DNA of 38,506 nt from a virus: IMG/VR virus record IMGVR_UViG_3300034374_002144, positions 1 to 38,506 of that record; one strand, written 5' to 3'. A program made the translations under genes and the position numbers. The notes under the pieces are model-generated. The model was not told the origin of the DNA. It was given only the letters and a program-made list of their open reading frames with translations, and searched no databases. This document shows, piece after piece, positions 16 to 35,715 of this stretch (positions are counted from its first letter, which is position 1; every line of letters starts with the position of its first letter).

Positions 16-19
16 AAAT

Positions 20-648: not shown

Positions 649-657
649 AAATTAAAA

Positions 658-1605
658 ATGGCGACTACAACTAGTATTACAAGTACTTATGCAGGGGAAT
701 TTGCAGGCAAGTATATTTCTGCTGCACTACTTTCTTCTCCAACTTTGGAGCAAGGAAACATCGAAATCAAACCTAATGTAAAATACAAAGAGGTTATCAA
801 AAAATTAGCAACCGATTCTAACGTAATCAAAGATGCTACTTGCGACTTTACAGACACAGCTACAATTACTTTGACTGAGCGTATTCTTCAGCCTGAGGAG
901 TTCCAAGTGAACCTTGAGCTCTGCCGTAAAGATTTTCACAGCGACTGGGAAGCTGTTCAGATGGGATATTCTGCATTTGACAACCTACCTCCTGCTTTTA
1001 GTGATTTTTTAATTGCTCACGTTGCAGGTCTAGTAGCTGAGAAAAACGAGCAAAACATCTGGGGTGGTGTTACAGGTAACGCAGGAGAGTTTGATGGTAT
1101 TACTGTACTAGCTGCTGCTGATGCTGATGTAAACGATGCTGCTAATGGTGGAGAAACTGCTTTCTCTTCTACTAACATCATCACTTTGTTAGAGAATGTA
1201 GTAGATTCTCTTCCTTCTGCTGTTTATGGTAAAGAGGATTTGACTATCTATATGCCTACTATTGCTTGGCAGTCTTACATCCGTCAATTAGGTGGATATG
1301 CTGCTAACGGAGTTGGTGCTGCGGGTTACGAAAACAGAGGTTCTCAATGGTATAATATGGGCAATGCACTTTCTTTCGATGGTATTAAGTGTGTTCTTGC
1401 TCCGGGTATGCCTACTAACCACATCGTAGCAGGACAAAAATCTAACTTCTACTTCGGTACTGGTCTTTTATCAGATCATCAAGAAGTTAAATTGTTAGAT
1501 ATGGCTGATCTAGATGGTTCTCAGAATGTTCGTGTAGTAATGCGATTTACTGCTGGTGTACAGTACGGAATTGGTTCTGATATTGCTTTGCTTACTTTAG
1601 CTTAA
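658..1605 (+). CDS. Major capsid protein, HK97-fold type (copy 1)
   Basis: This 315-residue protein follows the scaffold-like gene and precedes tail and portal genes. The size, the N-terminal arm, the central segment with ERILQPEEFQVN (residues about 84-95) and the C-terminal part with NFYFGTGLLSD and a final GVQYGIGSDIAL stretch fit the major capsid proteins of Bacteroidetes siphophages with the HK97 fold. The second copy differs at about 7 residues, with many silent base changes, so both look functional. A strong hairpin terminator follows at 1627-1665. The fold assignment is by pattern recognition, not by a search. Confidence 0.88.
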   Translation: MATTTSITSTYAGEFAGKYISAALLSSPTLEQGNIEIKPNVKYKEVIKKLATDSNVIKDATCDFTDTATITLTERILQPEEFQVNLELCRKDFHSDWEAVQMGYSAFDNLPPAFSDFLIAHVAGLVAEKNEQNIWGGVTGNAGEFDGITVLAAADADVNDAANGGETAFSSTNIITLLENVVDSLPSAVYGKEDLTIYMPTIAWQSYIRQLGGYAANGVGAAGYENRGSQWYNMGNALSFDGIKCVLAPGMPTNHIVAGQKSNFYFGTGLLSDHQEVKLLDMADLDGSQNVRVVMRFTAGVQYGIGSDIALLTLA

Positions 1606-1626
1606 TAAATAATAATTGTCTAATAT

Positions 1627-1665
1627 AAAGGGTGGGTAAGGACAGTTCCTGCCTGCCCTTTTTTA
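1627..1665 (+). terminator. Hairpin terminator after capsid gene (copy 1)
   Basis: A long GC-rich stem with G·T pairs and one bulge (arms 1627-1642 and 1647-1661, loop CAGT) is followed by a T run. The counterpart at 35044-35082 keeps both arms and changes one base in the loop only, which supports selection on the stem. It lies in the 71-nt gap before the tail tube gene, so it probably attenuates transcription and raises capsid mRNA relative to downstream genes. Confidence 0.8.
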
Positions 1666-1676
1666 ATACTTAAAAT

Positions 1677-2204
1677 ATGGCTTGTGCATTAACAACAGGA
1701 AGATCACTACCTTGTAAGAGTGCTGTAGGTGGACTTAAAACAGTTTACTTTGCGGACTATGGCACTTTAGGTACAGCTACCATTTCAGCAGGTGAGATTA
1801 CAGCTCTATCAGGCACTCCTTCGTGGTATCAGTATGATATTAAAGGAAACTCTAGCTTAGAGACTACTGTAAACTCATCAAGAGAAAATGGTACTACTTT
1901 TTACACGCAAACTCTTAACTTGACACTCACTTACTTAGATAAGGCTACTCAAGAGGAGATTAAACTACTAGCTGCTGCTAGACCTCACGTTGCTATCGAG
2001 GATTACAATGGAAACTTTTTCCTAGTAGGACTTGAACACGGAGCAGAGGTAACTGGTGGTACTATTGTTTCAGGTGCAGCAATGGCTGACCTTTCAGGAT
2101 TTACTTTGACTTTTGAAGCTATGGAGACAGCTCCTGCATACTTTGTTACTTCTACAGTAATTACAGATGATGCCTCAGCTACTCAGATTGATCCTGATGC
2201 TTAA
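1677..2204 (+). CDS. Putative major tail (tube) protein (copy 1)
   Basis: This 175-residue protein starts with a short motif (MACALTTGRSLPCKSAVGG, residues 1-19, two cysteines) followed by GLKTVYFADYG. I recognise this opening from abundant tail-structural proteins of Bacteroidetes phages. The body alternates Thr/Ser-rich beta strands, typical of tail tube proteins. It sits between two strong terminators, behind the capsid gene, so it is probably expressed at a level of its own. The second copy differs at about 6 residues. Tail tube is the most likely role; a head decoration protein is the alternative. Confidence 0.65.
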   Translation: MACALTTGRSLPCKSAVGGLKTVYFADYGTLGTATISAGEITALSGTPSWYQYDIKGNSSLETTVNSSRENGTTFYTQTLNLTLTYLDKATQEEIKLLAAARPHVAIEDYNGNFFLVGLEHGAEVTGGTIVSGAAMADLSGFTLTFEAMETAPAYFVTSTVITDDASATQIDPDA

Positions 2205-2221
2205 TATTGTTTTTTAGAGAG

Positions 2222-2254
2222 AAGGAGGCTAGCTTAATGTTAGCCTTTTTTTTT
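2222..2254 (+). terminator. Hairpin terminator after tail tube gene (copy 1)
   Basis: GGCTAGC (2227-2233) pairs with GTTAGCC (2239-2245) around a TTAAT loop and is followed by eight or more T. It is conserved at 35640-35672. It is followed within 10 nt by the next late-promoter motif, marking an operon boundary. Confidence 0.85.
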
Positions 2255-2262
2255 GCACCTAT

Positions 2263-2297
2263 GCAAAATAATTGCTTTTTAGCGTTATATATGTATG
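2263..2297 (+). promoter_or_regulatory. Late-promoter motif upstream of gene 2295 (copy 1)
   Basis: GCAAAAT (2263-2269), 13 nt, CGTTATAT (2283-2290), 4 nt, ATG. The paired site at 35681-35715 keeps both boxes and both spacings, while most of the 13-nt spacer has changed. This is a footprint of selection on the boxes. Confidence 0.7.
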
Positions 2298-2714
2298 AAG
2301 ATACTTACTACTAGTACGGCAGCACAGAGTCTAAGATTTGTTCCTAGAGATTATGTTACTAGTGCTACGCTATATATAAGAGATGATAGTACCAATGTAA
2401 CTACTAATCAAGCGGTAGAATTAATACAGGATGGTGATGAGCTAGTATATACAGCAAGTTTTGAGCTAATAGAGGGAAGATTCTATGATTTTGATTTTGT
2501 TGTAGATCCTAACTTGTGGGAGCAAAACACTTTGCTATGGAATATGAACTATGACAAGTGGGAGGATTCTCAGGGTGCAGCTCTTAGTTTGTATAAGGAT
2601 AAGATATTCTGCACGGATCAGCCTTTAGATCAGACAGAGGATGAGTACTACACAGTAAATAAAAATGAGTATGTTACAGAAAAGACATACGATAATGAGT
2701 ACATAATAATATGA
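2295..2714 (+). CDS. Conserved structural-module protein of unknown function (copy 1)
   Basis: I do not recognise a named domain in this 139-residue acidic protein. It has alternating hydrophobic strands in the first 75 residues, suggesting a small beta fold, then a Trp- and Tyr-rich segment and an acidic tail ending EYIII. It heads the operon with the portal gene, overlapping it by 4 nt (ATGA), so the two are probably translationally coupled. The copy at 35713-36132 differs at about 10 residues, mostly conservative. A neck or head-tail joining role is possible from context but not shown. Confidence 0.8.
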   Translation: MKILTTSTAAQSLRFVPRDYVTSATLYIRDDSTNVTTNQAVELIQDGDELVYTASFELIEGRFYDFDFVVDPNLWEQNTLLWNMNYDKWEDSQGAALSLYKDKIFCTDQPLDQTEDEYYTVNKNEYVTEKTYDNEYIII

Positions 2715-4492
2715 GAAAGCTAAAGAATCAAAGACCTGCTTTAAAGCCTAAGTCTCAATCAGAGGTGCATCTAGTTAATCTAAGTACCTACACTTCTCCT
2801 AAAATCAAGGAAGTAAGAGGCAAAGAATGGGTGTCCTATGGAGAGGATAACAATTACTATCAGTTTTTGATTGATAGATACAATGGATCGCCTACTAACA
2901 ATGCCGCTATTAATGGCTTGTCAGAGATGATTTACGGAAAAGGCTTAGATGCTACTGACTCTAACAGAAAGCCTGACCAATATGCACAGATGATTACTTT
3001 GCTTAAAAAAGACTGTGTAAGAAAGCTAGTTTTTGACTTAAAACTAATGGGTAGCTGTGCAATGCAGATTATCTACTCTAAGGACAGAACAAAAGTAGCT
3101 CAGGTAGAGCATTTTCCTATTGAAACACTAAGAGCTGAGAAATGCAATGAAGAAGGAGATATAGAGGCTTACTACTATTTTAAGGACTGGGCAAATATCA
3201 AACCCACAGATGAGCCTAAAAGAATACCTTGCTTTGGATATAGCAGAGAGTCAATAGAGATTTATGTAGTTAAGCCTTACAGAGCAGGATTTTATTACTA
3301 TTCACCTGTAGATTATCAAGGAGGATTGCAGTATAGCGAGCTAGAGGAGGAAATTTCTAACTATCATTTAAATAATATCCTAAATGGCTTAGCACCATCT
3401 ATGCTTATCAACTTCAATAATGGAGTACCTAATGAAGAGCAAAGAAGATTGATTGAGAATAGAATATATGAGAAGTTCTCAGGCAGCTCAAATGCAGGGA
3501 AGTTTATTCTTAGCTTCAATGACAATGCAGATGCACAGGCTAATATTGAGCCAGTTCAACTATCAGATGCTCACAATCAGTATCAGTTCTTATCAGATGA
3601 GAGTGCTAGAAAGATACTAGTAAGCCATAGAATCGTTTCTCCTATGCTTTTAGGTATCAAGGATAACACAGGGCTAGGAAATAACGCAGACGAGCTTAAA
3701 ACAGCCTCTATTTTGATGGATAACACAGTTATTAGACCTTTTCAAACTTTATTGATAGATGCTTTTGATCAGATACTAGCTTATAACAGCATTTCTCTTA
3801 ATCTATACTTTAAAACTCTACAGCCACTAGAATTTACAGACTTAGAAAATGTGGTAGATGATGAAACAAGAGAAGAAGAGACAGGAGTAAAAATGAGCAA
3901 GCAAAATCCTGAGGCTACTGAGGAGCTTGCAGACCTATTGCAAGAGTTTGGAGAAGATGAGGATTTAGATAACTGGGTGCTTGTTGATGAGAGAGCGGTA
4001 GATTACGATCAAGAGGAGGCTTTAGATAAAATGATAGGACTAGCCTCTACAGGAACTGCTAGACCAAATGCAAAGAGCGAGCAAGATGGAGAAGAGGATA
4101 ACCTAAGATTCAAAGTAAGATACCAATATGCACCACTAAGAACCTCAGATAACTCAAGAGAGTTTTGTCAAAAGATGGTAGCTGCTAAAAAGATTTATAG
4201 AAAAGAGGATATTCAAGCTATGGGTCAAAGAGCAGTTAATGCAGGATGGGGTCCAAATGGAGCTAGTACTTATGATATTTGGCTATATAAAGGAGGAGGA
4301 GACTGTCATCACTTTTGGATGAGAAAAACCTATATGGCTAAGGGTGTTAATCCTGATGCTACTAATCCTAATGCAGAGATAAGCGTCAATAAAGCAAAGA
4401 AGGAAGGCTTTACTCCTGAGGTAAATGATCCTAAAGTAGCTAAGAGACCAAAAGATATGAAAAATAGAGGATTTTTAAAACCTAGAGGATAA
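2711..4492 (+). CDS. Portal protein with extra C-terminal domain (copy 1)
   Basis: The first ~390 residues form a portal protein. They include an N-terminal clip/wing region, a segment around VRKLVFDLKLMGSCAMQI, and a long helical stem region with SHRIVSPMLLG and a NADELKTAS stretch that are characteristic of SPP1/HK97-type portals. About 200 further residues follow an acidic linker. They form a separate domain with FCQKMV, VNAGWGPNG, YDIWLYKGGGDCHHFWMRK and a basic C-terminus. The Cys-His-His cluster could bind metal or be a processing or head-morphogenesis module; I cannot name it. The second copy is 607 residues, and most of the differences are in this C-terminal domain. The portal dodecamer would form the DNA entry vertex. 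Confidence 0.88.
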   Translation: MRKLKNQRPALKPKSQSEVHLVNLSTYTSPKIKEVRGKEWVSYGEDNNYYQFLIDRYNGSPTNNAAINGLSEMIYGKGLDATDSNRKPDQYAQMITLLKKDCVRKLVFDLKLMGSCAMQIIYSKDRTKVAQVEHFPIETLRAEKCNEEGDIEAYYYFKDWANIKPTDEPKRIPCFGYSRESIEIYVVKPYRAGFYYYSPVDYQGGLQYSELEEEISNYHLNNILNGLAPSMLINFNNGVPNEEQRRLIENRIYEKFSGSSNAGKFILSFNDNADAQANIEPVQLSDAHNQYQFLSDESARKILVSHRIVSPMLLGIKDNTGLGNNADELKTASILMDNTVIRPFQTLLIDAFDQILAYNSISLNLYFKTLQPLEFTDLENVVDDETREEETGVKMSKQNPEATEELADLLQEFGEDEDLDNWVLVDERAVDYDQEEALDKMIGLASTGTARPNAKSEQDGEEDNLRFKVRYQYAPLRTSDNSREFCQKMVAAKKIYRKEDIQAMGQRAVNAGWGPNGASTYDIWLYKGGGDCHHFWMRKTYMAKGVNPDATNPNAEISVNKAKKEGFTPEVNDPKVAKRPKDMKNRGFLKPRG

Positions 4493-4992
4493 TGGCTACA
4501 GCACTTTTTATAACAAGAACGGATCTAGTAAGAAATAGTGTCTTAGATGGCAACGTAGATACTGATAAGTTTATTCAGTTTATCAAAATTGCTCAAGAGA
4601 TTCACGTCAGAAACTATCTAGGATCAGATTTATACAACAAGATTAGCAATGACATTCTAGCTAGTAACTTAACAGGAGACTATCTAACACTAGTAAACAA
4701 TTATGTACAGCCTATGCTGATACACTATGCTATGATGGACTACTTGCCATTTGCAGCCTATACAATTAAAAATGGAGGCATCTATAAGCACGTTAGCGAA
4801 ACAGCAGAAACAGTTACAAAAGAGGAGGTGGATTACTTAGTGCAAAAGGAATTAGACATAGCAGAATACTACACAAGAAGATTCATAGATTATATGAGCT
4901 TTAATCAGAGCAAGTTTCCTGAGTACACATCTAACTCAAATGATGACATCTATCCTTCACACGATGCAAACTTTAATGGCTGGGTGCTATGA
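4492..4992 (+). CDS. Head-tail connector protein, DUF6712-like (copy 1)
   Basis: This 166-residue, mostly helical protein overlaps the portal stop by one base. The opening ATALFITRTDLVRNS, an IRNYLGSDLY-like helix (residues about 36-46) and a conserved FPEYTSNSNDDIYPS tail fit a family of gp6-like head-tail connector proteins from Bacteroidetes phages that I know as DUF6712. The position after the portal supports this. It would form a ring below the portal to prepare tail attachment. The copy at 37952-38452 differs at about 8 residues. The family name is from memory and should be confirmed by a profile search. Confidence 0.72.
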   Translation: MATALFITRTDLVRNSVLDGNVDTDKFIQFIKIAQEIHVRNYLGSDLYNKISNDILASNLTGDYLTLVNNYVQPMLIHYAMMDYLPFAAYTIKNGGIYKHVSETAETVTKEEVDYLVQKELDIAEYYTRRFIDYMSFNQSKFPEYTSNSNDDIYPSHDANFNGWVL

Positions 4993-5084
4993 AATATAAA
5001 CCAAAGCAAACCAATATTACAAAACTAAAACAGTACTTAAATAAAATAACAAACAATGGCAACACTAACAGGAAATACAATTAA
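4989..5084 (+). CDS. Possible 31-residue basic protein overlapping fibre start
   Basis: An ATG overlaps the connector stop (ATGA) and opens a 31-codon reading frame rich in Lys and Asn that runs 29 nt into the fibre gene. In the second copy the visible part (57 nt) differs by one base only, and that change is silent (TAT to TAC). This conservation is higher than in neighbouring genes. It may be a real coupled leader peptide, or the DNA may be conserved as an untranslated leader of the fibre gene. Confidence 0.35.
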   Translation: MKYKPKQTNITKLKQYLNKITNNGNTNRKYN

Positions 5085-8000
5085 GGACACTTATCAGTCG
5101 CTCCTTAAAGTAAATGACAATGGAGAGCTAGCAGCAACTCTTCAAGAGATTACAGATGGAGTTGGTAATGGCTCAGGTGTCAGCTTAAACACAACTGGTG
5201 ATCTTAAAGCAGAGGGAACTATTGAGTTTGGCTCTTTGAAAGACACAGGAGAAGCTATCACTATAACAAAGTTTGTAGATGAGGCTGATGGTATTGCAAA
5301 TAACGATAATGATACTTCTATTCCTACTTCTGCTGCCATTATAGATTATGTAGCTGCAAAAATTACAGAAGAGGATTTAGACTTTGCAGGAGATTCAGGT
5401 ACTGGCTCTGTAGATTTAGACTCTCAGACTTTCACTATTGGAGGTACTGCTAATCAAATAGAAACTACAGCAACTGGTCAAAGCCTTACTATAGCTTTTC
5501 CTAGCGCAGGTGTTGTTTTACCTGATGGTTCTACTGCTACTACTCAAGCTATTTCTGACGACTCAACAAAGGTTGCTACTACTGCTTATGTTAAATCAGT
5601 TCTTACTCAAGAGGACTTAGATTTTCAAGGTGATACAGGAACAGGAAGTGTGGACTTAGATTCTGAGGTGCTAGATATTGCAGGAGGTACAGGAATTGAT
5701 ACGGTAGCATCAGGGCAAACTCTTACAGTTAATATTGATAGCACAGTAGCAACGCTTACAGGCACTCAGACGCTTACTAACAAAACAATAAATGCTGATA
5801 ATAATACTATCTCAAACTTAGAAGTAGATAACTTAAAAGCAGGAGTATTAGATACAGATTTGACTACTGTTTCAGCATCAGATGATACTTTAGCTTCGGC
5901 AAAAGCGATTAAGACTTATGTAGATGCTAATATCACAGCTCAGGACTTAGATATAACAGATGGAACTACTACCTCAGCAGTAGATTTGGATTCTCAGACA
6001 ATGACTATCCAAGGCACAGCTAATGAGGTGGAGGTTAGCTTAACAGATCAGACTTTTACAGTAGGACTTCCTGATACTATCAATGTAAATGTTTCAGGTA
6101 ACATCACAGGAGACATCACAGGCAATGCAGGTACAGCTACTGCTTTAGAAACAGCTAGAGATATTGCATTATCAGGAGACGTAGTAGGATCAGCTAGCTT
6201 TGATGGTACTGCTAATATTACAATAGCTGCCACTATTCAGGCTGACTCAGTAGCACTAGGAACAGATACCACAGGAGACTATGTAGCTAACTTAGGAACT
6301 GGTACAGGGGTTACTATTGCAAGCAACACAGGAGAAGGATCACAGCCTACAATTTCAGTAGATTATGGCTCAACAGCTAACACAGCAGTAGAGGGAGATA
6401 CTGAGATTACAATAAGTGGCACTACAAACCAAATAGAAATAACAGGAACTGCTAATCAAGCACTAGGAGGTTCACCATCTTACACAGTAGGCTTACCTGA
6501 TGATGTTACAATAGCAGGCAGCTTGATAGTTAGCAATGATCTAACAGTAAATGGTACTACTACCACAGTAAACACTCAGACGCTATCAGTAGAAGATCCA
6601 CTAATTGCTTTGGCTATTGCTAATGATGCTAACTCAGTAGATACAGGATTCTATGCTAAATACTCTTTAGATTCAGGTGTTACTACTAAGTTTGCAGGGT
6701 TATTTAAGGATGCTTCAGATACTGATACTTTTAAGCTATTTAAAGGCTTAGAGGTAGAGCCTACTACTACTGTTGATACGGCAGGCACAGGATATGCTTT
6801 AGCAGACATTCAGGTAGCAGGATTAGAGGCCACTACAATTGTAAAAACAGGAGGATCATCTACAGAGTTCTTAAAAGCAGATGGCTCAATAGATTCTAAC
6901 ACTTACCTCACAGCAGAAAGCGACACTTTAGATGCTGTTACAACAAGAGGCAACACTACTACTAACTCAATAGAAGTAGGAGCTGCTACAATCACAGGCG
7001 ACCTTACAGTAGATACAAACACTTTATACGTTGATAGTACTGACAATCGAGTGGGGATAGGTACTACGAGTATTAATTCTAAAGTTCAAATAGAACAACC
7101 GCAACAAATATCAGGTGCATTTTCAAATCCATTTATTAAATTATCAAATTCAGCACAAACTGACAATATTGGTACAACTGCAATAGCTTTAGCAACTTCT
7201 ACTGCTGATAATTATGGATATGCTATAAGTGCAAAAAGAGGCACAAGTGGAGCTGATTCAAGTTTTATTATAACACATCACGACAATAGTTTAACTGGCA
7301 CAGAACGAATGCGTATCGACTCAAGTGGTAATGTAGGAATAGGGACTGATAATCCGAGTGCGGGGATTCACGTTAAACACGGAAGTATAACTACTTCTTC
7401 TGACTATTCAAGTTTTTTATCAAACGCAACTGCTAAAATAGTTGCAAATCATTCAAGTGAATATGGTATTTCGATTGGTTATGCTAATGCCTCAACTGAC
7501 ACTATTGGAATACAGTCTGGTAATACAGGAGCATCAAGACCTTTAAGTTTACAGCCTTTTGGTGGCAACGTAGGAATAGGTACCAGTAGTCCAACAAGAA
7601 CGCTTGAAGTAAATAGCGGAACTGCTTCTGATATTGCTAAAATTGGAAACAATAGTGGTGCGTTTACTTTTGGTTATAGTGCTTCTTTAGCAAGTATTGA
7701 TTTAGCAGCAAGTAATGCTTTTAGAATAAGACAGGGTGCTGTTATTCCTTTTTATATAAACACAGATAGCAACGTAGGAATAGGCACTACGAGTCCTAAT
7801 TATAGGCTTAATTTATCTAATTCAAGTACTTTAACCCCAGTTTACCAACAATTTACAAACGGAACAACTGGAACTACCGCAAACGATGGAACCGTTATGG
7901 GTATTGATTCAGATGGAGATTTTATAATTAACAATTTAGAAGCTAAAGATATAAAATTATACACTTCTGACACCCCCCGAATGGTTATAGACTCGAGTGG

Positions 8001-14033: not shown

Positions 14034-14227
14034 TAGAATTTTTCTTTTTTGGTTATGCAGTAAATATTCAATTTATACCAATATATGGTTGTGGCTTAGG
14101 AGTGCTTTATTATAATCCTAATCTACAGCCTGATGAAGAAGATGTGCCTGAAGATGATTTTTATCATCAGGTTACAGTTATGTTTTTGTTTTTTGGAATA
14201 CACTTGACAATTTGGAAATATTACTAG
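14030..14227 (+). CDS. Small predicted membrane protein
   Basis: This 65-residue protein has two hydrophobic segments (residues about 2-28 and 48-62) with an acidic loop (PDEEDVPEDDF). It overlaps both the helicase (ATGA) and the sigma-like gene. Membrane location is predicted from hydrophobicity. It may act in host take-over or superinfection exclusion, but nothing in the sequence shows this. Confidence 0.55.
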   Translation: MIEFFFFGYAVNIQFIPIYGCGLGVLYYNPNLQPDEEDVPEDDFYHQVTVMFLFFGIHLTIWKYY

Positions 14228-14733
14228 AGGCATACAAAAAGCACAAAGATTGGTGTGAAATTGTGATGTCTTTTGGTTGTAATAAAGACACAGCAGAAGA
14301 TCTTGTGCAAGAAATGTATCTTAAATTATATGATCTAACACAAAAAGGTGTAAATATTAAATACAATAATACAGTTAATTATTATTACATCTACAAAATA
14401 TTAAGAAGCTTTTTTATAGACTTAAAAAGAAAAGAAAGCAAAATAAATATAGTAGATATTGATGCAATACATATTCATAATCTAAATGTAGCTAACATAT
14501 ATTTTAATGAAGGCTCACCAGTTGAGATGTTTGATGTTACATTTTACAATGAATTATATGATAAATTAATGAGTGTTTTAGATAGTTTGTATTGGTATGA
14601 CAGAAAAGTATTTGAATTGTTAGATGGAGAAACATCAGTATCAGAGCTGTCAAGAAACACAGGAATCAGTTACTACTCTTTGTACAACACTTATAAAAAA
14701 GTAAAACAAATTATAAAAGACGAATTATTATGA
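14212..14733 (+). CDS. Sigma-70-family (ECF-like) sigma factor
   Basis: The likely start is TTG at 14212, overlapping the previous gene by 16 nt; the next in-frame ATG is about 17 codons later and would cut into region 2. The protein has 173 residues, the usual ECF length. Residues about 27-42 (DTAEDLVQEMYLKLYD) match sigma region 2. LRSFFIDLKRKE (about 63-74) fits the end of region 2. The C-terminal VFELLDGETSVSELSRNTG with YYSLYNTYKKVKQ is a region-4 helix-turn-helix. It would redirect host RNA polymerase. The GCAAAAT/CGYTATAT late motif is the obvious candidate target (inference). Confidence 0.72.
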   Translation: MEILLEAYKKHKDWCEIVMSFGCNKDTAEDLVQEMYLKLYDLTQKGVNIKYNNTVNYYYIYKILRSFFIDLKRKESKINIVDIDAIHIHNLNVANIYFNEGSPVEMFDVTFYNELYDKLMSVLDSLYWYDRKVFELLDGETSVSELSRNTGISYYSLYNTYKKVKQIIKDELL

Positions 14734-16033: not shown

Positions 16034-16801
16034 ATGATAACATTACTAGATGGAACACAATGGAATAAAGAGGACTTGCTAAAAGAAATGCAGTCAGATG
16101 AGTTTTACTATGGTTACTTATCAAAAGCAGCTCTTAGTAGTTCATCCTTAAAGCTATTATTAGATAGCCCTAAAACATATTACAATGTTATTCAATATGG
16201 CAATGAAGAAAGCCAAGCCCTTAGAGATGGATGGTTATTCCACACAGCTATACTAGAGCCTGATGTATTTAATGCTCAGGTATTTGTAGATGTAGCTTCA
16301 AAAAATACAAAAGCTTATAAGTTAGCCAAAGAAGAACACGGCAGAGTATTTACTAAAACAGAAAAAAAGTTTGCAGAAAGAATGGCTGATGCTTTTTTAA
16401 GAAATGAAAAGGCTTTGCAGTATATTCAAAAATCAGAATTTGAAGTCCCTGTTGTTGGCAATGTTATGGGTATGCCATTTAGGGGTAAAGCTGATGTCTT
16501 GGGAGATGGTAGGATATGCGATTTAAAAAGCTCATCAGACTTAAAGGCATTTCCATATTCAGCTAAAAAATATTCTTATGACATTCAATGCTATCTTTAT
16601 TGTACTCTTTTTGATGTGCCATACGATGCATTTACTTTTCTAGTTATAGACAAGGGCAGCTTAGATATCGGAATATATCATTGCTCAGAGGAGTTTTATT
16701 TATCAGGGAAAGAGAAAACAGAGAAAGCTATACAGATATACGAAACATATTTTTTACAAGAAACAGACTTAGACCAATATTATATAGAAGGAATATTATG
16801 A
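16034..16801 (+). CDS. RecE-like / PDDEXK exodeoxyribonuclease
   Basis: This 255-residue protein fits the phage exodeoxyribonuclease VIII-like PDDEXK family. It has LSSSSLKLLLDSPKTYY near the start (about 34-50), H70 in GWLFH, then FRGKADVLGDGRICDLKSSS (149-168) with D154, D163 and K165 as catalytic residues. YDIQCYLYC, a conserved Gln/Tyr helix, follows. It would resect double-stranded ends to create 3' single strands for recombination. The expected partner annealing protein is not obvious in the window. It overlaps the next gene by 4 nt. Confidence 0.85.
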   Translation: MITLLDGTQWNKEDLLKEMQSDEFYYGYLSKAALSSSSLKLLLDSPKTYYNVIQYGNEESQALRDGWLFHTAILEPDVFNAQVFVDVASKNTKAYKLAKEEHGRVFTKTEKKFAERMADAFLRNEKALQYIQKSEFEVPVVGNVMGMPFRGKADVLGDGRICDLKSSSDLKAFPYSAKKYSYDIQCYLYCTLFDVPYDAFTFLVIDKGSLDIGIYHCSEEFYLSGKEKTEKAIQIYETYFLQETDLDQYYIEGIL

Positions 16802-17301
16802 CAATACAAGAACACTGTGCAAAAGAAGTAGTAGAGCATTACTATCAAATAAAATTAAATGAAAAAACAAGGAGATTTCCTTATGTAGAAGCAAGAGCAG
16901 TTTATTTTAAATTGGTAAGAGATAACAGCCATTTATCTTTCAGCAAAATAGGTATGCCATTTGGAAAAGATCACACAACTGTTTTATATTTATGTAATAA
17001 GATACAGGATTGGATGGAAACTGATAAAAACTTTTTAGCAACCTATCATCTTATTCAATCTGCTTATGAAAAAATATTAGACTTAAAGCCTAAATTGGTA
17101 GAAGAAGATTTATACAGTAAAATAGTAGAAGATAATGATTATAGAATAAAAGATATAATTCTGGAAAATCAAAAACAAATAGAAAGGCTCAAAAAAGAAA
17201 AAGAGAGTCTTAAAAAAATTATTTTAACAGAAAGATCAAAAAGAAAAAAATACGAAAAAATGTACAGTGAAAAAATAAATAAAGCTTTATGCAGCGAATA
17301 G
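16798..17301 (+). CDS. DnaA domain-IV-like DNA-binding protein
   Basis: The ATG at 16798 overlaps the exonuclease stop (ATGA) and gives 167 residues. Residues about 25-75 match the C-terminal double-stranded DNA-binding domain of DnaA: YVEARAVYFKLVRD, LSFSKIGMPFG and the signature GKDHTTVLYL (56-65), equivalent to the RDHTTV helix that reads DnaA boxes. There is no AAA+ ATPase part; the C-terminal half (about 120-160) is a basic coiled coil. It probably binds DnaA-box-like sites to start or block replication, or to act as an origin marker. It may compete with host DnaA. Confidence 0.8.
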   Translation: MTIQEHCAKEVVEHYYQIKLNEKTRRFPYVEARAVYFKLVRDNSHLSFSKIGMPFGKDHTTVLYLCNKIQDWMETDKNFLATYHLIQSAYEKILDLKPKLVEEDLYSKIVEDNDYRIKDIILENQKQIERLKKEKESLKKIILTERSKRKKYEKMYSEKINKALCSE

Positions 17302-17984
17302 TACATCAGGTTTTTTTTGGAATAAACGGAGAAACCTTAAAAGATCATTTATTGTTTGAGAAAAGCATTAGGTCTATTAAAAAAATTAATCCTAAAATAA
17401 AACACGTTCTTTGGTCAGAAGAAGATTGCCTAAATTTAGTCAAAGAAAACTTTCCTGAATATGTAGATTTTTATCTTAATATGAGATATGATATACAGCG
17501 TATGGACTATATTAGAAACGTTATTTTGTATTGCTATGGTGGGATATATGTAGATTTAGATATGATCTGTTTAAAGAGCTTAGATGAGCTATTTGAAAAA
17601 AAGTTTTTTATTCATAGTCTTAGACACATAAAGCCAAAACATAGTGAATTTGTTTTAAACGATTTAATGGGATCAGAAAAGGGCTTCAAGTTTTGGAAAA
17701 TATTAATAGATAAAACTGTAGAAAACTATAAAGAAAAGGAAAAGATTGAAGTCTATGACACTTGGAAAGCAAGATTTGTTTTGCAAACAACGGGACCTAA
17801 ATTTTTAAGCAGAGTTTTAAAAGAAGTTCTGCCAAGCTATAAGCCTGAGCATCTTGTTTATATAGACACAGAAAATGCAATGCATAAAGAATGGCGTTTT
17901 TCCACAGATGTAAAAGACAAAAGCAAGTATTATTTTGAAGACTATAAAGCAGGAACGTGGTTAAATAATTTATACGATGATTAA
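17289..17984 (+). CDS. GT32-type glycosyltransferase (DxD)
   Basis: This 231-residue protein has IVHQVFFG at the start and SIKKINPKIKHVLWSEEDC (about 29-47). The hallmark of GT32 / sugar-binding DXD transferases follows: DIQRMDYIRNVILYCYGG and IYVDLDM, with D89-x-D91 for metal and nucleotide-sugar binding. It overlaps the DnaA-like gene by 13 nt and the ParB-like gene by 8 nt. Because it opens a cassette ending in a TET/JBP dioxygenase, the likely acceptor is hydroxymethylated base in phage DNA. Glycosylation of host surface or proteins is the alternative. The sugar is unknown. Confidence 0.8.
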   Translation: MQRIVHQVFFGINGETLKDHLLFEKSIRSIKKINPKIKHVLWSEEDCLNLVKENFPEYVDFYLNMRYDIQRMDYIRNVILYCYGGIYVDLDMICLKSLDELFEKKFFIHSLRHIKPKHSEFVLNDLMGSEKGFKFWKILIDKTVENYKEKEKIEVYDTWKARFVLQTTGPKFLSRVLKEVLPSYKPEHLVYIDTENAMHKEWRFSTDVKDKSKYYFEDYKAGTWLNNLYDD

Positions 17985-18555
17985 AAAAGTTAAAATTTCA
18001 GAAGTAAAGAAAAATCCTAACAATCCAAGATTGATAAAGGATTACAAGTATCAAAAGCTAGTTAAAAGCATTAAGGATTTTCCTGAAATGCTTGAGCTTA
18101 GACCCATTGTTGTAGATGAAAATATGATTATACTTGGTGGTAATATGAGATACCGAGCAAGTGTAGATGCAGGTCTTGGTGAGGTTTGGATTAAGATTGC
18201 AGACAATCTAACAGAAGATCAAAAAAAAGAATTTGTTATTAAGGACAATTCTAATTTTGGTGAATGGGATTGGGATTTATTAGCAAATGAATGGGATATT
18301 AAAGCACTATCAGATTGGGGTCTTGACTTGCCAGCTGTTTACTTTGATGATGATGAAGAGCCTGAGTTTGATGAAGAAGAATTAGATCAAGACCTTGATA
18401 CATACATTAACAACAACATTAAACAAATTGTTTTATATTATAACACAGAAGAATATGAAGCTGTTATAGAAAGCTTAGACAAGCTAAAAGAAAGTCTAAA
18501 TATAGATGATAATTCTAAGCTAGTAAAACATTTGATTGATGAAAAACTTTCCTAA
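17977..18555 (+). CDS. ParB/sulfiredoxin-fold protein
   Basis: In this 192-residue protein residues 1 to about 75 form a ParB-N / Srx domain: KNPNNPRLIKD, the RPIVVDENMIILGGNMRYRA segment (about 43-62) with the GGxMRY nucleotide-binding loop, and a following helix. An acidic middle part and a helical end follow (VLYYNTEEYEAVIESLDKL). Such free-standing ParB-like proteins are fused to or next to DNA methylases in many phages, and comparative genomics has linked them to TET/JBP base-modification cassettes. It may bind or cut DNA or recognise the modified site. No methylase is attached here. Confidence 0.78.
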   Translation: MIKKVKISEVKKNPNNPRLIKDYKYQKLVKSIKDFPEMLELRPIVVDENMIILGGNMRYRASVDAGLGEVWIKIADNLTEDQKKEFVIKDNSNFGEWDWDLLANEWDIKALSDWGLDLPAVYFDDDEEPEFDEEELDQDLDTYINNNIKQIVLYYNTEEYEAVIESLDKLKESLNIDDNSKLVKHLIDEKLS

Positions 18556-19396
18556 GATATTTATCCCAAGCTACAATAGACCAGAGGAGATAAAAACATT
18601 AAGAAACTTAGATGGCTATGATCCTGTTATTGTTTTACATTCAGATGAGCAGCTTAAATTATATAAGCAATATAATCCTGATCTAAAATATGTAGTGACA
18701 AACGTGCCTGTTGGTGACTATAGTATGATTAAAACAAGAAACTATGTTCAAAATAATCTTGTAGAGGATGGCGAGTGGTTTATTATGTTTGATGATAACA
18801 ATCACAAGATAACTAAAGTGCAAGATGAATATTATCCATTTCAGGTTTTAGATGTAAAATCAGATAAGAAATATCAGGAAATATATAATCAGCAGGTAAC
18901 ACTAAAAGACATTGAAGAAGATATAATAAAAGATATAAGATTAGCTGAGCGAACAAATATTTATCATATTGCCTATGCACCTAATGAAAATTATTTTTTC
19001 AGACCAACAAAATATAGAAACATAGGATATACAAAGGGCAACGCTACTATCACTAGAAAAGATGGGTTGATATATGATGAGAATTTAAAATCAATGGACG
19101 ACTACTCATATGCTTGTCAGCAGCTTGTTAAATATGGTAAAGTCTTAATAAACTATTTTATTTGCTTTCATAAAAATCACTATTCAAAAGGAGGTATAGG
19201 AACTTATGAAAAAAGACTTCCTATGAAACTACACGACACAAAATATTTGATGGAAAAATATGCAGGACTTTTACGTTATTCTATTAAGAAGAATATGCAT
19301 CCTGAATCAGATCTAACATTTAGGATAACAAATATGAATAGCTTTAAAAAGTGGAGACATCAATATTTAAGAAATGAAAAAAATAGAATTAGCTAG
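18539..19396 (+). CDS. GT-A glycosyltransferase, TAGT-like
   Basis: The ATG at 18539 is preferred over TTG at 18536. This 285-residue protein opens with KIFIPSYNRPEEI (6-18), the first strand and loop of a GT-A nucleotide-sugar fold. It continues with YSMIKTRNYVQ (R67) and EWFIMFDDN (79-87), where D85-D86-N87 takes the DxD place. FRPTKYRNIGYT and a DDYSYACQQLVKYG acceptor segment follow. The R-N and DDN spacing resembles the TET-associated glycosyltransferases of phages. It overlaps the TET/JBP gene by 23 nt. It probably transfers a sugar to the hydroxymethyl group made by that enzyme. The exact family needs a profile search. Confidence 0.72.
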   Translation: MKNFPKIFIPSYNRPEEIKTLRNLDGYDPVIVLHSDEQLKLYKQYNPDLKYVVTNVPVGDYSMIKTRNYVQNNLVEDGEWFIMFDDNNHKITKVQDEYYPFQVLDVKSDKKYQEIYNQQVTLKDIEEDIIKDIRLAERTNIYHIAYAPNENYFFRPTKYRNIGYTKGNATITRKDGLIYDENLKSMDDYSYACQQLVKYGKVLINYFICFHKNHYSKGGIGTYEKRLPMKLHDTKYLMEKYAGLLRYSIKKNMHPESDLTFRITNMNSFKKWRHQYLRNEKNRIS

Positions 19397-20285
19397 AAAA
19401 CCAATAGATGTAGCAAAGTTTAAGAAAAGAACTGCGTTATTATCAGACGTTAACAACAAAATAACAGAAGACTGCATAATCTATAACGAGGGAAAGCCTG
19501 TTATATTATATATGAAGCTAGATAATAATGAAACAAAAAACCTTAGATGGGCAGTTAAAAACACTACATTTATTACAGGCAAAAGATCAAGAGGGCTAAA
19601 GCACACTTCAAGAACTTTTGGATATGCTCCACGGATAGCTATGAGGCAGGACTATTGCCACACTACTTCTTTAGCTTATGATCAGCCTAAGCATCACTTT
19701 GTTGTTTCAAGCTTTGCTAAAAACTTACAGGAAATATACAGTAAATATTTTCCTGATACATTTGAGCAACATCAGAACAAAGTAGAAGAAAAAATAAAGC
19801 CTGAGTGGAAAATAGCAGATACTCCTTTTACAAGCGGGATCATAAATAAAAACAACCCCTTAAAATACCACTATGATCAAGGAAACTTCAAAGGAGTTAT
19901 GAGTAATATGATAGCCTTTAAAAAAGATGTATTAGGCGGACATCTAGTAATACCTGAATTTGATATAGCTTTAGATATAGATGATAATACTTTAACTATA
20001 TTTGATGGTCAAGATATATTGCACGGAGTATCAGGATTTGAAAGAAAAAATGATCACGGATATAGATACACGATAGTTTATTATTCACTAGAACAGATGT
20101 GGAAGTGTGAACCAATAGATGATGAGGTTGTAAGAATAAGAAAGGTAAAAGAGCAAAGAGAAAAAAATAGACTAAACCCTGAGCATCTAGACTCTCTTAA
20201 AAAAAGAAAGGATGAACTTAAAGCACATTCAGATAAAGAGAAAGCTCTAAATAAAATAAAAAATGAACAAAACCGAACAACATAA
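19374..20285 (+). CDS. TET/JBP-family 2-oxoglutarate/Fe(II) DNA dioxygenase
   Basis: This 303-residue protein carries FGYAPRIAMRQDYC (82-95), FTSGIINKNN (152-161) and YHYDQGNFKGVMSNM (165-179), with H166-x-D168 as iron ligands. GGHLVIPEFDIAL and IFDGQDILHGVSGF, with H217 as the third ligand, come next. YRYTIVYYSLEQMWKC has R231 for 2-oxoglutarate. This order is that of TET/JBP dioxygenases, which oxidise the methyl of 5-methylcytosine (TET) or thymine (JBP) in DNA. A charged helical tail (about 250-303) follows. It lies between two glycosyltransferases with a ParB-like gene and the terminase. I see no cytosine-C5 methyltransferase, so the substrate is open. Confidence 0.88.
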   Translation: MKKIELARKPIDVAKFKKRTALLSDVNNKITEDCIIYNEGKPVILYMKLDNNETKNLRWAVKNTTFITGKRSRGLKHTSRTFGYAPRIAMRQDYCHTTSLAYDQPKHHFVVSSFAKNLQEIYSKYFPDTFEQHQNKVEEKIKPEWKIADTPFTSGIINKNNPLKYHYDQGNFKGVMSNMIAFKKDVLGGHLVIPEFDIALDIDDNTLTIFDGQDILHGVSGFERKNDHGYRYTIVYYSLEQMWKCEPIDDEVVRIRKVKEQREKNRLNPEHLDSLKKRKDELKAHSDKEKALNKIKNEQNRTT

Positions 20286-20610
20286 AAAAGCAATTTTAGA
20301 AGCTTTAGAAAAATCTTTAGGTATAGTTACTACTGCTTGCAAGCAAGTTGGTATTGGTAGAACTCAATTTTATGAATGGTTAAAAGATCCTGATTTTAAA
20401 GCGCAGGTAGATGACATTCAAAACATTACTTTAGACTTTGCAGAAAGCCAACTACACAAGCAGATAAAAGATGGCAATACCACCGCCACAATATTTTATT
20501 TAAAGACAAAAGGCAAGTCCAGAGGCTTTGTGGAGCGTCAAGAAATAACAGGAGCTGATGGCTTTCCAACAGAGATTGAGTTAAATATTATCAAGACTAA
20601 TGCGGATTGA
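20263..20610 (+). CDS. terS: Terminase small subunit (HTH)
   Basis: In this 115-residue protein the N-terminal half holds a helix-turn-helix: GIVTTACKQVGIGRTQFYEW (residues 20-39), as in phBC6A51-type small terminases. LHKQIKDGNTTATIFYLKT (64-82) is a recurring helix-turn in this family. It would recognise the packaging site and load the large subunit. It overlaps the dioxygenase gene by 23 nt and the large subunit by 11 nt, so modification and packaging genes are translated together. Confidence 0.85.
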   Translation: MNKTEQHKKAILEALEKSLGIVTTACKQVGIGRTQFYEWLKDPDFKAQVDDIQNITLDFAESQLHKQIKDGNTTATIFYLKTKGKSRGFVERQEITGADGFPTEIELNIIKTNAD

Positions 20611-21754
20611 CACCAATGTTGTTTGTGAACATCTTCTTGAGACAGATAAAAAAATAATTGTAGAGCAGGGGGGTACTCGCTCGGGCAAAACGTACAATAT
20701 ACTTGTATGGATTATATTTTATTACTGTGCTTTTAACAAGGGCAAGATCATAACAATATGCAGAAAAACATATCCTGCCTTAAGAACCTCAGCTATGAGG
20801 GATTTTATAACAATACTTAGAGAAAAAAATATATACAAAGAAGAAGATCATAACAAGTCAGCTTCTGAGTATAGACTAAACGGAAACTTAATAGAATTTA
20901 TATCTTTGGATCAGCCTCAAAAAGTGAGAGGTAGAAAAAGAGATTTGCTTTTTATTAATGAGGCTAATGAATTATACTGGGAAGACTGGCAGCAGCTTAT
21001 ATTCAGAACGCAGGAGAAGATAGTAATAGACTACAACCCCTCTGATGAATATCACTGGATATATGACAAGGTTATACCAAGAGATGATGCAGCTTTTTTT
21101 CAAACAACCTATAAAGACAACCCATATTTAGAGAAAACTATCATAGAGGAGATAGAAAGACTTAGACAAACTGATGAAGAATATTGGCAGATTTATGGGC
21201 TTGGGCAAAGAGGTATATCAAAGTCCACTATCTTTAGGTACACAGAGGTTGAATCAATCCCTGAGACAGCTTCTTTTTTAGCTTATGGTATAGACTATGG
21301 CTTCACTAATGATCCAACAACCATAGTGGGCGTATGGACTGATGGCTATATGCTATACGCTAAAGAATATTTATATCAAACAATGATGACAACAATCGAC
21401 ATACATAGAAAGCTAAAGGCTATTGGTATAGATCGAGAGATGATATTTGGAGATAGTGCTGAGCCAAGACTAAATGAGGAGCTAAGGAGAATGGGGTGGA
21501 ATGTAAAGCCAAGCCTTAAAGGCAGGGATAGTGTTAATGCAGGAATTGATTTACTTAAAAGATATAAAATACACCTAACAAGAGACTCTGATAATATGAT
21601 ACAGGAGTTCAGAAACTATAAGTGGAAGCAAGATAGGAATGGAAAAACATTAAACATACCAGAAGATAAAGCAAACCACACAACCGATGCACTCAGATAT
21701 GCCACCTATTCTTTGTTGAGCAAGCCAAACTTTGGTAAATATGCTATACAATAA
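20600..21754 (+). CDS. terL: Terminase large subunit
   Basis: In this 384-residue protein the ATPase domain has Walker A GGTRSGKT (24-31) and Walker B LLFINEAN with catalytic E121. The nuclease domain has D232 in YGIDYGFTNDPT, D285 in IFGDSAEPR and D363 in NHTTDALRY, the acidic triad of the RNase-H-like fold. Length and motifs fit the phage terminase_3 / PBSX-type family, often linked to headful packaging. That would agree with the terminal redundancy implied by the overlapping contig ends. It is the last gene of the long operon. Confidence 0.95.
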   Translation: MRIDTNVVCEHLLETDKKIIVEQGGTRSGKTYNILVWIIFYYCAFNKGKIITICRKTYPALRTSAMRDFITILREKNIYKEEDHNKSASEYRLNGNLIEFISLDQPQKVRGRKRDLLFINEANELYWEDWQQLIFRTQEKIVIDYNPSDEYHWIYDKVIPRDDAAFFQTTYKDNPYLEKTIIEEIERLRQTDEEYWQIYGLGQRGISKSTIFRYTEVESIPETASFLAYGIDYGFTNDPTTIVGVWTDGYMLYAKEYLYQTMMTTIDIHRKLKAIGIDREMIFGDSAEPRLNEELRRMGWNVKPSLKGRDSVNAGIDLLKRYKIHLTRDSDNMIQEFRNYKWKQDRNGKTLNIPEDKANHTTDALRYATYSLLSKPNFGKYAIQ

Positions 21755-33265: not shown

Positions 33266-33410
33266 ACACGACAACAAAATTCCTAGTAGAACATCACCTA
33301 AAGGAAGTAAGAGAGGGTGTCTATGTAAAGATACTAACACATATTCTAGCAAGTGCTGTGATGGCTCTTTGTGGGCTCAAGGCATAGGTAAAATATATGG
33401 GAATAATTAA
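33258..33410 (+). CDS. 50-residue cysteine-rich conserved phage protein
   Basis: The frame overlaps the previous gene by 8 nt. It has KGSKRGCLCKDTNTYS and CCDGSLWAQGIG, with four cysteines that could bind zinc. I recognise the GCxCxDxxTYSxxCC...QGIG pattern from many Bacteroidetes phages, next to head genes. Its last codons reappear at the left edge of the window. Confidence 0.75.
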   Translation: MPKHDNKIPSRTSPKGSKRGCLCKDTNTYSSKCCDGSLWAQGIGKIYGNN

Positions 33411-33414
33411 AAAT

Positions 33415-33449
33415 GCAAAATAAAAACCACTAAACGCTATATTATTATG
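33415..33449 (+). promoter_or_regulatory. Late-promoter motif upstream of scaffold gene (copy 2)
   Basis: GCAAAAT (33415-33421), 13 nt, CGCTATAT (33435-33442), 4 nt, ATG. Compared with 20-54, the spacer sequence has diverged but both boxes and both distances are kept. Confidence 0.7.
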
Positions 33450-34064
33450 AAAAACCCAACACAAATGCTAAAGGAAATTAAAAACATTCTAGGCATTGAG
33501 CTTTCTGAGGAGGTCAAAGAGCAAGAAGTATCTACCGAACAAGTAGAGGCTAATGCTCAGGCTGCTGAAGAACCAAAGGTAAACTTTGCTCAAATGAAAC
33601 TAGAAAACGGTACTGTTTTGGAAGCTGAAGCTTTTGAAGCAGGTAATGAAATTTTTATCTTAACAGAGGATGAAAAAGTAGCTGTGCCAGTAGGAGAGTA
33701 TCAAATGGAAGATGGTCAAATCTTATTGGTAGCAGAAGAAGGAGTTATTTCTGAAATTAAAGCCTACGAGGATATGCCTGAGGAGGAGGAGAAAGAAGAA
33801 ATGAATTACGCTACAAAAGAAGAATTAGCTGAGGTTGTATCTATGATTGAAGAAATCAAAGCTATGATTCAAGGAAAAGAAGAAGCTGCTGATCAAGTTG
33901 CTGAGGAAGAAGCACAATTAAAAGAAGAATTATCTAAACCTGCTGCTGCTCCATTAAAGCACAATCCAGAAGCTGAAAACAAAAAAGAACGAGTATTGTA
34001 CGCTCAGCGTAGAGCAATGACTACAAGAGATCGTGTATTTCAAAAATTTGCAAACCTAAATTAA
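33447..34064 (+). CDS. Putative capsid scaffolding protein (copy 2)
   Basis: This 205-residue protein is the counterpart of 52-648. The N-terminus, the central GTVLEAEAFEAGNE domain and the basic C-terminus are kept. The acidic linkers differ in sequence and length (for example EDMPEEEEKEEMNY versus a Glu/Ala-rich stretch). It is the most diverged of the repeated pairs, as expected for a low-complexity scaffold. Confidence 0.65.
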   Translation: MKNPTQMLKEIKNILGIELSEEVKEQEVSTEQVEANAQAAEEPKVNFAQMKLENGTVLEAEAFEAGNEIFILTEDEKVAVPVGEYQMEDGQILLVAEEGVISEIKAYEDMPEEEEKEEMNYATKEELAEVVSMIEEIKAMIQGKEEAADQVAEEEAQLKEELSKPAAAPLKHNPEAENKKERVLYAQRRAMTTRDRVFQKFANLN

Positions 34065-34074
34065 TCTAATAAAA

Positions 34075-35022
34075 ATGGCAACAACAACTAGTATTACCAG
34101 TACATATGCTGGCGAATTTGCAGGGAAGTACATCTCTGCTGCTTTATTATCTTCTCCTACTTTGGATCAAGGTAACATCGAAATTAAACCTAATGTAAAA
34201 TACAAAGAGGTTATTAAAAAATTAGCAACTGATTCTAACGTAATCAAAGATGCTACTTGTGATTTTACTGACACAGCTACAATCACTTTGACTGAGCGTA
34301 TTCTTCAGCCTGAGGAGTTTCAAGTGAACCTTGAGCTTTGTAAGAAAGATTTTCACAGCGATTGGGAAGCTGTTCAGATGGGATATTCTGCATTTGACAA
34401 CTTGCCTCCTAAATTCAGTGATTTTTTAATCAATCACGTTGGTGGTCTTGTAGCTGAGAAAAACGAGCAAAACATCTGGGGTGGTGTTACAGGCAACGCA
34501 GGAGAGTTTGATGGTATTACTGTACTAGCTGCTGCTGATGCTGACGTAAATGATGCTGCTAATGGTGGAGAAACTGCTTTTTCTTCTACTAACATTATTA
34601 CTTTGTTAGAGAATGTAGTAGATGCTCTTCCATCTGCTGTTTATGGCAAAGAGGATTTGACTATCTATATGCCAACTATTGCTTGGCAGTCTTACATCCG
34701 TCAATTAGGTGGATATGCTGCTAACGGAGTTGGTGCTGCGGGTTACGAAAACAGAGGTTCTCAATGGTATAATATGGGTAACGCACTTTCTTTCGATGGT
34801 ATTAAGTGTGTTCTTGCTCCTGGTATGCCTACTGACCACATCGTAGCAGGACAAAAATCTAACTTCTACTTTGGTACTGGTCTTTTATCAGATCATCAAG
34901 AAGTTAAATTGTTAGATATGGCTGATCTAGATGGTTCTCAGAATGTGCGTGTAGTAATGCGATTTACTGCAGGTGTACAGTACGGAATTGGTTCTGATAT
35001 TGCTTTGCTAACTCTAGCTTAA
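34075..35022 (+). CDS. Major capsid protein, HK97-fold type (copy 2)
   Basis: This 315-residue protein is the counterpart of 658-1605, with about 7 substitutions (for example LEQ to LDQ, PPAF to PPKF, TNH to TDH) and many silent changes. The excess of silent over replacement changes indicates purifying selection on two established lineages, not a recent duplication. Confidence 0.88.
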   Translation: MATTTSITSTYAGEFAGKYISAALLSSPTLDQGNIEIKPNVKYKEVIKKLATDSNVIKDATCDFTDTATITLTERILQPEEFQVNLELCKKDFHSDWEAVQMGYSAFDNLPPKFSDFLINHVGGLVAEKNEQNIWGGVTGNAGEFDGITVLAAADADVNDAANGGETAFSSTNIITLLENVVDALPSAVYGKEDLTIYMPTIAWQSYIRQLGGYAANGVGAAGYENRGSQWYNMGNALSFDGIKCVLAPGMPTDHIVAGQKSNFYFGTGLLSDHQEVKLLDMADLDGSQNVRVVMRFTAGVQYGIGSDIALLTLA

Positions 35023-35043
35023 TAAATAATAATTGTCTAATAT

Positions 35044-35082
35044 AAAGGGTGGGTAAGGACAATTCCTGCCTGCCCTTTTTTA
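35044..35082 (+). terminator. Hairpin terminator after capsid gene (copy 2)
   Basis: Both stem arms are identical to those at 1627-1665. The single change (G to A) is in the loop, and the T run is kept. Confidence 0.8.
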
Positions 35083-35093
35083 ATACTTAAAAT

Positions 35094-35621
35094 ATGGCTT
35101 GTGCATTAACTTCAGGAAGATCACTACCTTGTAAGAGTGCCGTAGGTGGACTTAAAACAGTTTACTTTGCGGACTATGGCACTTTAGGTACAGCTACCAT
35201 TTCAGCAGGTGAGATTACATCTTTAGCAGGTACTCCTACTTGGTATCAATTTGACATCAAAGGAAACTCTAGCTTAGAAACTACCGTAAACTCATCAAGA
35301 GAAAATGGTACTACTTTTTATACGCAAACTCTAAATCTTACTCTTACTTACCTAGACAAGTCTACACAAGAGGAGATTAAATTACTAGCTGCTGCTAGAC
35401 CTCACGTTGCTATCGAGGATTACAATGGAAACTTTTTCCTAGTAGGACTTGAACACGGAGCAGAGGTTACTGGCGGTACTATTGTTTCAGGTGCAGCTAT
35501 GGCTGACCTTTCAGGATTTACTTTGACATTTGAAGCTATGGAGACAGCTCCTGCATATTTTGTTACTTCTACAGTAATTACAGATGATGCTTCAGCTACT
35601 CAGATTGATCCTGATGCTTAA
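35094..35621 (+). CDS. Putative major tail (tube) protein (copy 2)
   Basis: This 175-residue protein is the counterpart of 1677-2204, with about 6 conservative substitutions gathered in residues 7-95. The C-terminal half is identical at the protein level as far as I can see. Confidence 0.65.
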   Translation: MACALTSGRSLPCKSAVGGLKTVYFADYGTLGTATISAGEITSLAGTPTWYQFDIKGNSSLETTVNSSRENGTTFYTQTLNLTLTYLDKSTQEEIKLLAAARPHVAIEDYNGNFFLVGLEHGAEVTGGTIVSGAAMADLSGFTLTFEAMETAPAYFVTSTVITDDASATQIDPDA

Positions 35622-35639
35622 TATTGTTTTTTAGAAAGA

Positions 35640-35672
35640 AAGAGGGCTAGCTTAATGTTAGCCTTTTTTTTT
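35640..35672 (+). terminator. Hairpin terminator after tail tube gene (copy 2)
   Basis: GGCTAGC/GTTAGCC with a TTAAT loop, as in copy 1, and a T run. The flanking bases differ from copy 1. Confidence 0.85.
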
Positions 35673-35680
35673 ATCTCAAT

Positions 35681-35715
35681 GCAAAATAAATAAGTCATCT
35701 CGTTATATTATTATG
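35681..35715 (+). promoter_or_regulatory. Late-promoter motif upstream of gene 35713 (copy 2)
   Basis: GCAAAAT (35681-35687), 13 nt, CGTTATAT (35701-35708), 4 nt, ATG. The spacer differs strongly from the copy-1 site at 2263-2297, while boxes and distances are the same. Confidence 0.7.

Follow-up and report, generated by a model that had tools for sequence, protein, structure and literature searches.

A predicted TET/JBP-based DNA-hypermodification cassette beside the terminase genes of a flavobacterial-type phage

The gene architecture considered here is already catalogued, and TAGT (TET-Associated Glycosyltransferase) is a named Pfam family: phage operons combining ParB, TET/JBP and TAGT genes, including those of actinophages such as CaiB, were reportedly surveyed by Iyer et al. 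in 2013. The ParB–TET/JBP–transferase–terminase arrangement has been described for actinophages, with CaiB encoding ParB, TET/JBP, a pyrophosphorylase and a kinase ahead of terminase (PMC9302106). Here we analyse a related cassette in the virus record IMGVR_UViG_3300034374_002144 (38,506 nucleotides, hereafter the window), in which four overlapping genes encode two glycosyltransferases, a ParB/Srx-fold protein and a TET/JBP dioxygenase. We propose, with a probability of roughly 0.55, that these genes, translationally coupled and expressed late, serve a flavobacterial-type phage as a DNA-hypermodification cassette, in which thymine would be converted to 5-hydroxymethyluracil (5hmU) and then to a sugar-bearing base, as a partial mark.

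Like the catalogued operons of CaiB and other phages (no C5-methyltransferase was found in the 18 isolates searched), the window brings ParB, TET/JBP, transferase and terminase together; unlike them, it adds a GT32-type glycosyltransferase and falls within a separate marine, flavophage-like clade, with a TET about 30–35% identical to those of the actinophages. The nearest isolate by portal protein (39.5%), Nonlabens phage P12024L/S (Inhavirus, about 35.7 kb), also carries Tet_JBP and TAGT genes and no C5-methyltransferase, but its TET is of another lineage (26.6% identity over 61% of the query) with Asp three residues beyond the iron-binding Asp (D+3), its transferase follows TET, no ParB is annotated beside TET and an N4/N6-methyltransferase is present, the ‘methyltransferase’ next to the P12024L TET being of the N6_N4 type. 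The proposed logic resembles that of kinetoplastid base J (JBP1/2 and JGT), in which a dioxygenase acts on thymine in DNA and a glycosyltransferase then adds the sugar, with no methyltransferase; the window protein differs in being a 303-residue enzyme lacking the J-binding or SNF2 part, its base and sugar are predictions, and its presumed role is phage defence rather than transcription termination. A dioxygenase–glycosyltransferase pairing is likewise said to underlie the 5-methylcytosine (5mC)-dependent phage TET hypermodification of Burke et al. (2021), where a phage C5-methyltransferase reportedly supplies the 5mC, whereas none was found in the window. In phages M6, ViI and phi W-14, 5-hydroxymethyl-deoxyuridine in DNA starts thymidine hypermodification, a DNA kinase phosphorylating the base before transferases modify it (PMC6449724). 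Relatives of our cassette similarly carry ADDT and P-loop kinase genes acting after the hydroxymethyl base; in M6, ViI and phi W-14, however, that base is incorporated at replication (PMC6449724), whereas in the window TET/JBP would generate 5hmU on the DNA itself, with sugar transferases in place of ADDT and kinase.

The dioxygenase and its partner genes

The last cassette gene (19374–20285, plus strand, as are the other genes of this section) encodes a 303-residue 2-oxoglutarate/Fe(II) dioxygenase that matches the Tet_JBP profile above its cut-off (PF12851, 5.3e-13; 49 bits against 34.9). A TET family profile recovered TET2 (4.5e-7), CcTet, CMD1 and NgTET1 from the PDB, and a Foldseek search with an AlphaFold model (pLDDT 81.7, built from the window and IMG/VR homologues only) placed NgTET1 first (8e-12), with CcTet, CMD1 and TET2 also ahead of FTO; phmmer with the single sequence, unlike these two approaches, gave no TET match in the PDB. 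The active site is intact, comprising the H166-Y-D168 iron-binding motif with Asn171 at D+3 (19869–19877), the third iron ligand H217 (20022–20024) and the predicted 2-oxoglutarate-binding R231 (20064–20066). H166, D168, H217 and R231 are invariant across 21 close homologues and in a 25-sequence divergent set that includes isolate phages; alignment A2 was too divergent for use in viral-contig scans. Both the TET/JBP membership and the order of catalytic residues put forward in the original prediction are thus upheld, and the enzyme is predicted to oxidise a 5-methylpyrimidine in DNA with 2-oxoglutarate and Fe(II). RefSeq and phrog_6059 label the TET/JBP proteins of Nigel (gp2; L080 in our set of loci, which carry L numbers), other actinophages and cyanophages ‘queuine tRNA-ribosyltransferase’, a label that looks wrong because these proteins align with the window Tet_JBP and share its catalytic residues.

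Immediately upstream lies the TAGT gene (18539–19396), encoding a GT-A glycosyltransferase with a DDN motif that matches PF20691 (2.2e-8; 34.7 bits against a cut-off of 27.5) and phrog_842 (4.9e-12) and is linked to TET; its start is probably ATG 18539, one codon past TTG 18536, and the enzyme would glycosylate the hydroxymethyl base. It is preceded by a 192-residue ParB/Srx-fold protein (17977–18555; PF02195 (ParB_N), 2.2e-6; phrog_498/phrog_620, about 1e-26), which may bind DNA for the modification enzymes or direct them to their targets, and by a 231-residue GT32-type glycosyltransferase (17289–17984; Gly_transf_sug with a DXD motif, PF04488, 1.5e-16), predicted to be an optional second sugar transferase. 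The Pfam matches of all four genes exceed curated cut-offs. The genes overlap by 8, 20 and 23 nt, the dioxygenase gene overlaps that of the terminase small subunit (TerS, 20263–20610; phrog_309, 7.4e-7; phrog_2538, 1.6e-6) by 23 nt, and TerS overlaps the terminase large subunit (TerL, 20600–21754; PF04466 (Terminase_3), 2e-21; PF17288, 5e-17) by 11 nt, confirming the gene order first described from the open reading frames. Because start codons lie inside the preceding genes, translational coupling of the whole set seems likely. Directly upstream of GT32, a DnaA C-terminal-like helix-turn-helix protein (16798–17301, start ATG 16798; PF08299, 4.1e-11; TIGR00362, 1.3e-13, C-terminus only) provides context outside the proposed pathway.

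In the mechanism that we propose, the ParB-like protein would engage replicated phage DNA and position the enzymes, a role that fits the frequent fusion of phage ParB-CTPase folds to predicted DNA methyltransferases (PMC12704722). The dioxygenase would act on a pyrimidine within existing DNA, hydroxylating its 5-methyl group and most likely converting thymine to 5hmU with no need for a methyltransferase; TAGT would then put the first sugar on the hydroxymethyl group and GT32 would supply a second or alternative sugar, just ahead of packaging by the adjacent terminase. Decoration of the DNA with one or two sugars, as originally suggested, is the best reading of these genes, and the mark would be partial or sequence-restricted.

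Related loci and the choice of base

Relatives of the window TET are encoded at 78 IMG/VR loci, and their surroundings are strongly conserved. ParB lies upstream of TET at each of the 63 loci whose upstream DNA exceeds 1.5 kb, and terminase genes occur no more than three genes downstream at 61 of 64. The slot between ParB and TET is filled by a transferase or a protein of unknown function in 58 of 61 loci, 52 of which hold a TAGT-type glycosyltransferase (both figures are sums from a table of the ParB–TET gap); an unknown 300-residue protein occupies it in three, ADDT with an FAD oxidoreductase and a P-loop protein in three, and it is empty in three. A GT32 homologue precedes ParB at 14 of the 45 loci with enough upstream DNA, and some relatives have further upstream tailoring genes, a glycosyltransferase (phrog_7162) and a TylF-like methyltransferase, which suggest larger sugars there. 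The protein of about 300 residues that replaces the glycosyltransferase beside TET (L036:958-1863, L043:1513-2418, L074:6691-7596 and L068:4863-5756) has no Pfam match, a weak PHROG match (0.067) and a low-confidence model (pLDDT 47), and is a candidate new base-tailoring enzyme.

As the original prediction held, no C5-methyltransferase (PF00145, phrog_757, phrog_363) and no thymidylate-synthase-family dUMP/dCMP hydroxymethylase (PF00303) was found in the window; nor was an N4/N6-methyltransferase (PF01555). The accompanying claim, that phage TET cassettes are usually arranged otherwise, does not survive comparison. PF00145 had no match above cut-off in any of 50 related IMG/VR records, and 33 of 34 other TET records lacked PF00303 above the family cut-off. 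Complete genomes of relatives, in which a methyltransferase would have counted against the original prediction, gave no PF00145 match in any of 18 isolates, although phrog_757 and phrog_363, added because small phage C5-methyltransferases escape Pfam, picked out C5-methyltransferase-like genes in 2 of 49 records (the L015 contig and L131; the window was not among them). In this lineage, TET cassettes as a rule lack a C5-methyltransferase, the two exceptions lying on metagenomic contigs. One apparent case, MED4-184 CPAG_00033 (L083:4662-5303), is annotated ‘DNA methylase’; its sole Pfam match is to ParB_N (6.4e-5, below cut-off), and the label probably stems from phrog_498, in which ParB domains and methyltransferases are grouped together.

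Which base is modified is best approached through the genes that take the place of the glycosyltransferase. ADDT was detected in 12 of the 50 records that carry a TET and in no control genome (0 of 14). It stands with the FAD oxidoreductase and P-loop protein beside TETs 59–61% identical to the window's (L057-L059), and with a kinase in the TET operon of L071 (1705-6991), whose order of ParB, TET, class II glutamine amidotransferase, GNAT, ADDT, kinase, TerS and TerL points to hypermodification driven by TET and followed up by unusual tailoring enzymes. Isolates, with actinophages among those that have ADDT beside TET, show the same pattern: AnarQue, Prince and MO526 carry ADDT, Kharcho a kinase, and Tonitrus and Kozie again ADDT. 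On a TET tree of 49 rows (where the label ‘kin_only’ means merely that no glycosyltransferase or ADDT was assigned nearby), ADDT requires at least seven changes and is interleaved with glycosyltransferases, which suggests a common hydroxymethyl intermediate for the modules. On the simplest reading, 5hmU made from thymine would be the single hydroxymethyl base supplying either a glycosyltransferase or an ADDT/kinase module. Because thymidine-hypermodification enzymes replace the glycosyltransferase in several relatives, and do so at interleaved positions of the TET tree, a route from thymine through 5hmU to glycosyl-5hmU is favoured.

Alternatives and the extent of the mark

The suggestion of thymine as substrate in the original prediction thus becomes a serious candidate, given the missing C5-methyltransferase and hydroxymethylase and the ADDT/kinase swaps, but several observations weigh against it. 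L131 is a counterexample: at 1883-5718 its TET, which belongs to the P12024L lineage, has a C5-methyltransferase-like gene two genes upstream and ADDT-like and kinase genes downstream, so ADDT and kinase are not proof of thymine, and ADDT/kinase chemistry on cytosine is possible there. The L015 contig has a small C5-methyltransferase-like gene away from TET. The TETs of ADDT-bearing close relatives are only about 50–60% identical to that of the window, and base preference could have shifted between them. Asn171 at D+3 is also Asn in TET2, leaving the active-site sequence compatible with 5mC, and the phage TETs assayed so far are said to act on 5mC (Burke et al. 2021).

The last two points would also favour oxidation of host-made 5mC to 5-hydroxymethylcytosine and then glycosyl-5-hydroxymethylcytosine at host-methylated sites only, a mark whose sparseness would fit the persisting site avoidance described below. 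Phage TET oxidation of 5mC has been summarised elsewhere (PMC12730594). We nevertheless consider this account unlikely, if credible, since cassettes without a C5-methyltransferase are spread across phages of Flavobacteriia, Actinobacteria and cyanobacteria, all of which would have to depend on host enzymes, and since the ADDT/kinase swaps point to 5hmU. CpG depletion in the window (observed/expected 0.35) was rejected as a sign of 5mC: TpG is not clearly raised, and the depletion is common to L001 and L077, with relatives such as L002 at 0.85. If a phage methyltransferase too divergent for recognition supplied the 5mC, the window would hold an ordinary 5mC–TET–glycosyltransferase cassette; Pfam does see small phage C5-methyltransferase-like proteins poorly, that of L015 falling below the PF00145 cut-off with no Pfam match by hmmscan while phrog_757 detects it, but the window is negative for phrog_757, phrog_363 and PF00145 alike, the L015 protein has no window match below E 3.5 and motif scans list no window open reading frame, which makes the idea improbable. 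Modification of another base such as N6-methyladenine, or a packaging-signal mark in place of DNA protection, could draw on the presence of CcTet, crystallised with N6-methyladenine DNA (7w5p), among the top fold matches and on the tight TerS/TerL linkage, which suggests action at packaging; with no N6/N4-methyltransferase found in the window by PF01555, and with ADDT, kinase and TAGT relatives known from hydroxymethyl-pyrimidine chemistry, it appears very improbable. That the glycosyltransferases serve host surface sugars or the capsid, the dioxygenase being unrelated, is hardly plausible: GT32 enzymes reportedly often build surface polysaccharides, but the ParB–TET slot is the usual place of TAGT-type genes, and it is into this slot that DNA-modifying ADDT/kinase genes are swapped.

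How much of the DNA would be marked was approached through restriction-site avoidance. Positions 1–33395 contain no CATG against about 93 expected, one GGCC against 27, one CCGG against 8 and one CCNGG against 22, and pooled 6-base palindromes stand at 0.68 of expectation. Many related phages also have zero CATG, some with zero GATC, CTAG, CGCG, CCGG or TCGA as well. The first 30 kb of Croceibacter P2559S and of Flavobacterium 11b, neither with an annotated TET, show avoidance of similar sites, which makes it a general property of such phages, one that the cassette has left in force; it was therefore discarded as a readout of the modified base and argues only against complete replacement. Because blanket glycosylation of every C or T should remove the pressure on CATG, the mark is more probably partial or confined to certain contexts than a complete base replacement. 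The L071 contig avoids even AATT and TTAA. In the P12024L-type phages L123 and L125, the dinucleotide observed/expected ratios are 0.45 for TC/GA and 1.65 for GC, and no 4-base palindrome is avoided, a skew that may reflect a context-specific mark.

Genome record and outlook

Self-comparison of the window shows that bases 1–5046 reappear at 33396–38506 with 87–94% identity. Because the relatives G002 and G029 hold a single head module (protease, scaffold, capsid, portal and the next gene) in the gene order of the circularised window, the record is most likely one phage circle of about 33.4 kb plus a 5.1 kb strain-variant overlap. The duplicated head module is best read as a wrap-around assembly of two co-occurring strains; a true tandem duplication was ruled out by the single copy in the relatives. 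The description of the record as a whole genome is thus nearly correct, short of the variant overlap, and gene absences are trustworthy to that extent. A genome-contig scan returned two loci only, so that no host could be assigned by that route. Further upstream, a sigma-70 region 2-like gene (14212–14733) with homologues in 32 of 79 loci is a possible phage sigma factor.

More tentatively, and at somewhat less than even odds, we suggest that a widespread phage TET/JBP lineage hydroxylates thymine in finished DNA, with 5hmU serving as a platform for interchangeable glycosyltransferases (base-J-like, with up to two sugars here) or for kinase/ADDT modules that yield amino-acid-derived thymines, the ParB-fold partner selecting the sites. 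The occurrence of glycosyl-5hmU, a base-J-like nucleotide, in bacterial viruses is a testable point, and the comparison yields cultured phages (Nonlabens phage P12024L, Mycobacterium phages Nigel and Prince, and Arthrobacter phage Altadena) for asking which base phage TET/JBP enzymes modify. If these TETs do act on thymine, they would provide new enzymes for placing sugars at T in DNA, and the trypanosome base J pathway would have its equivalent in bacterial viruses.

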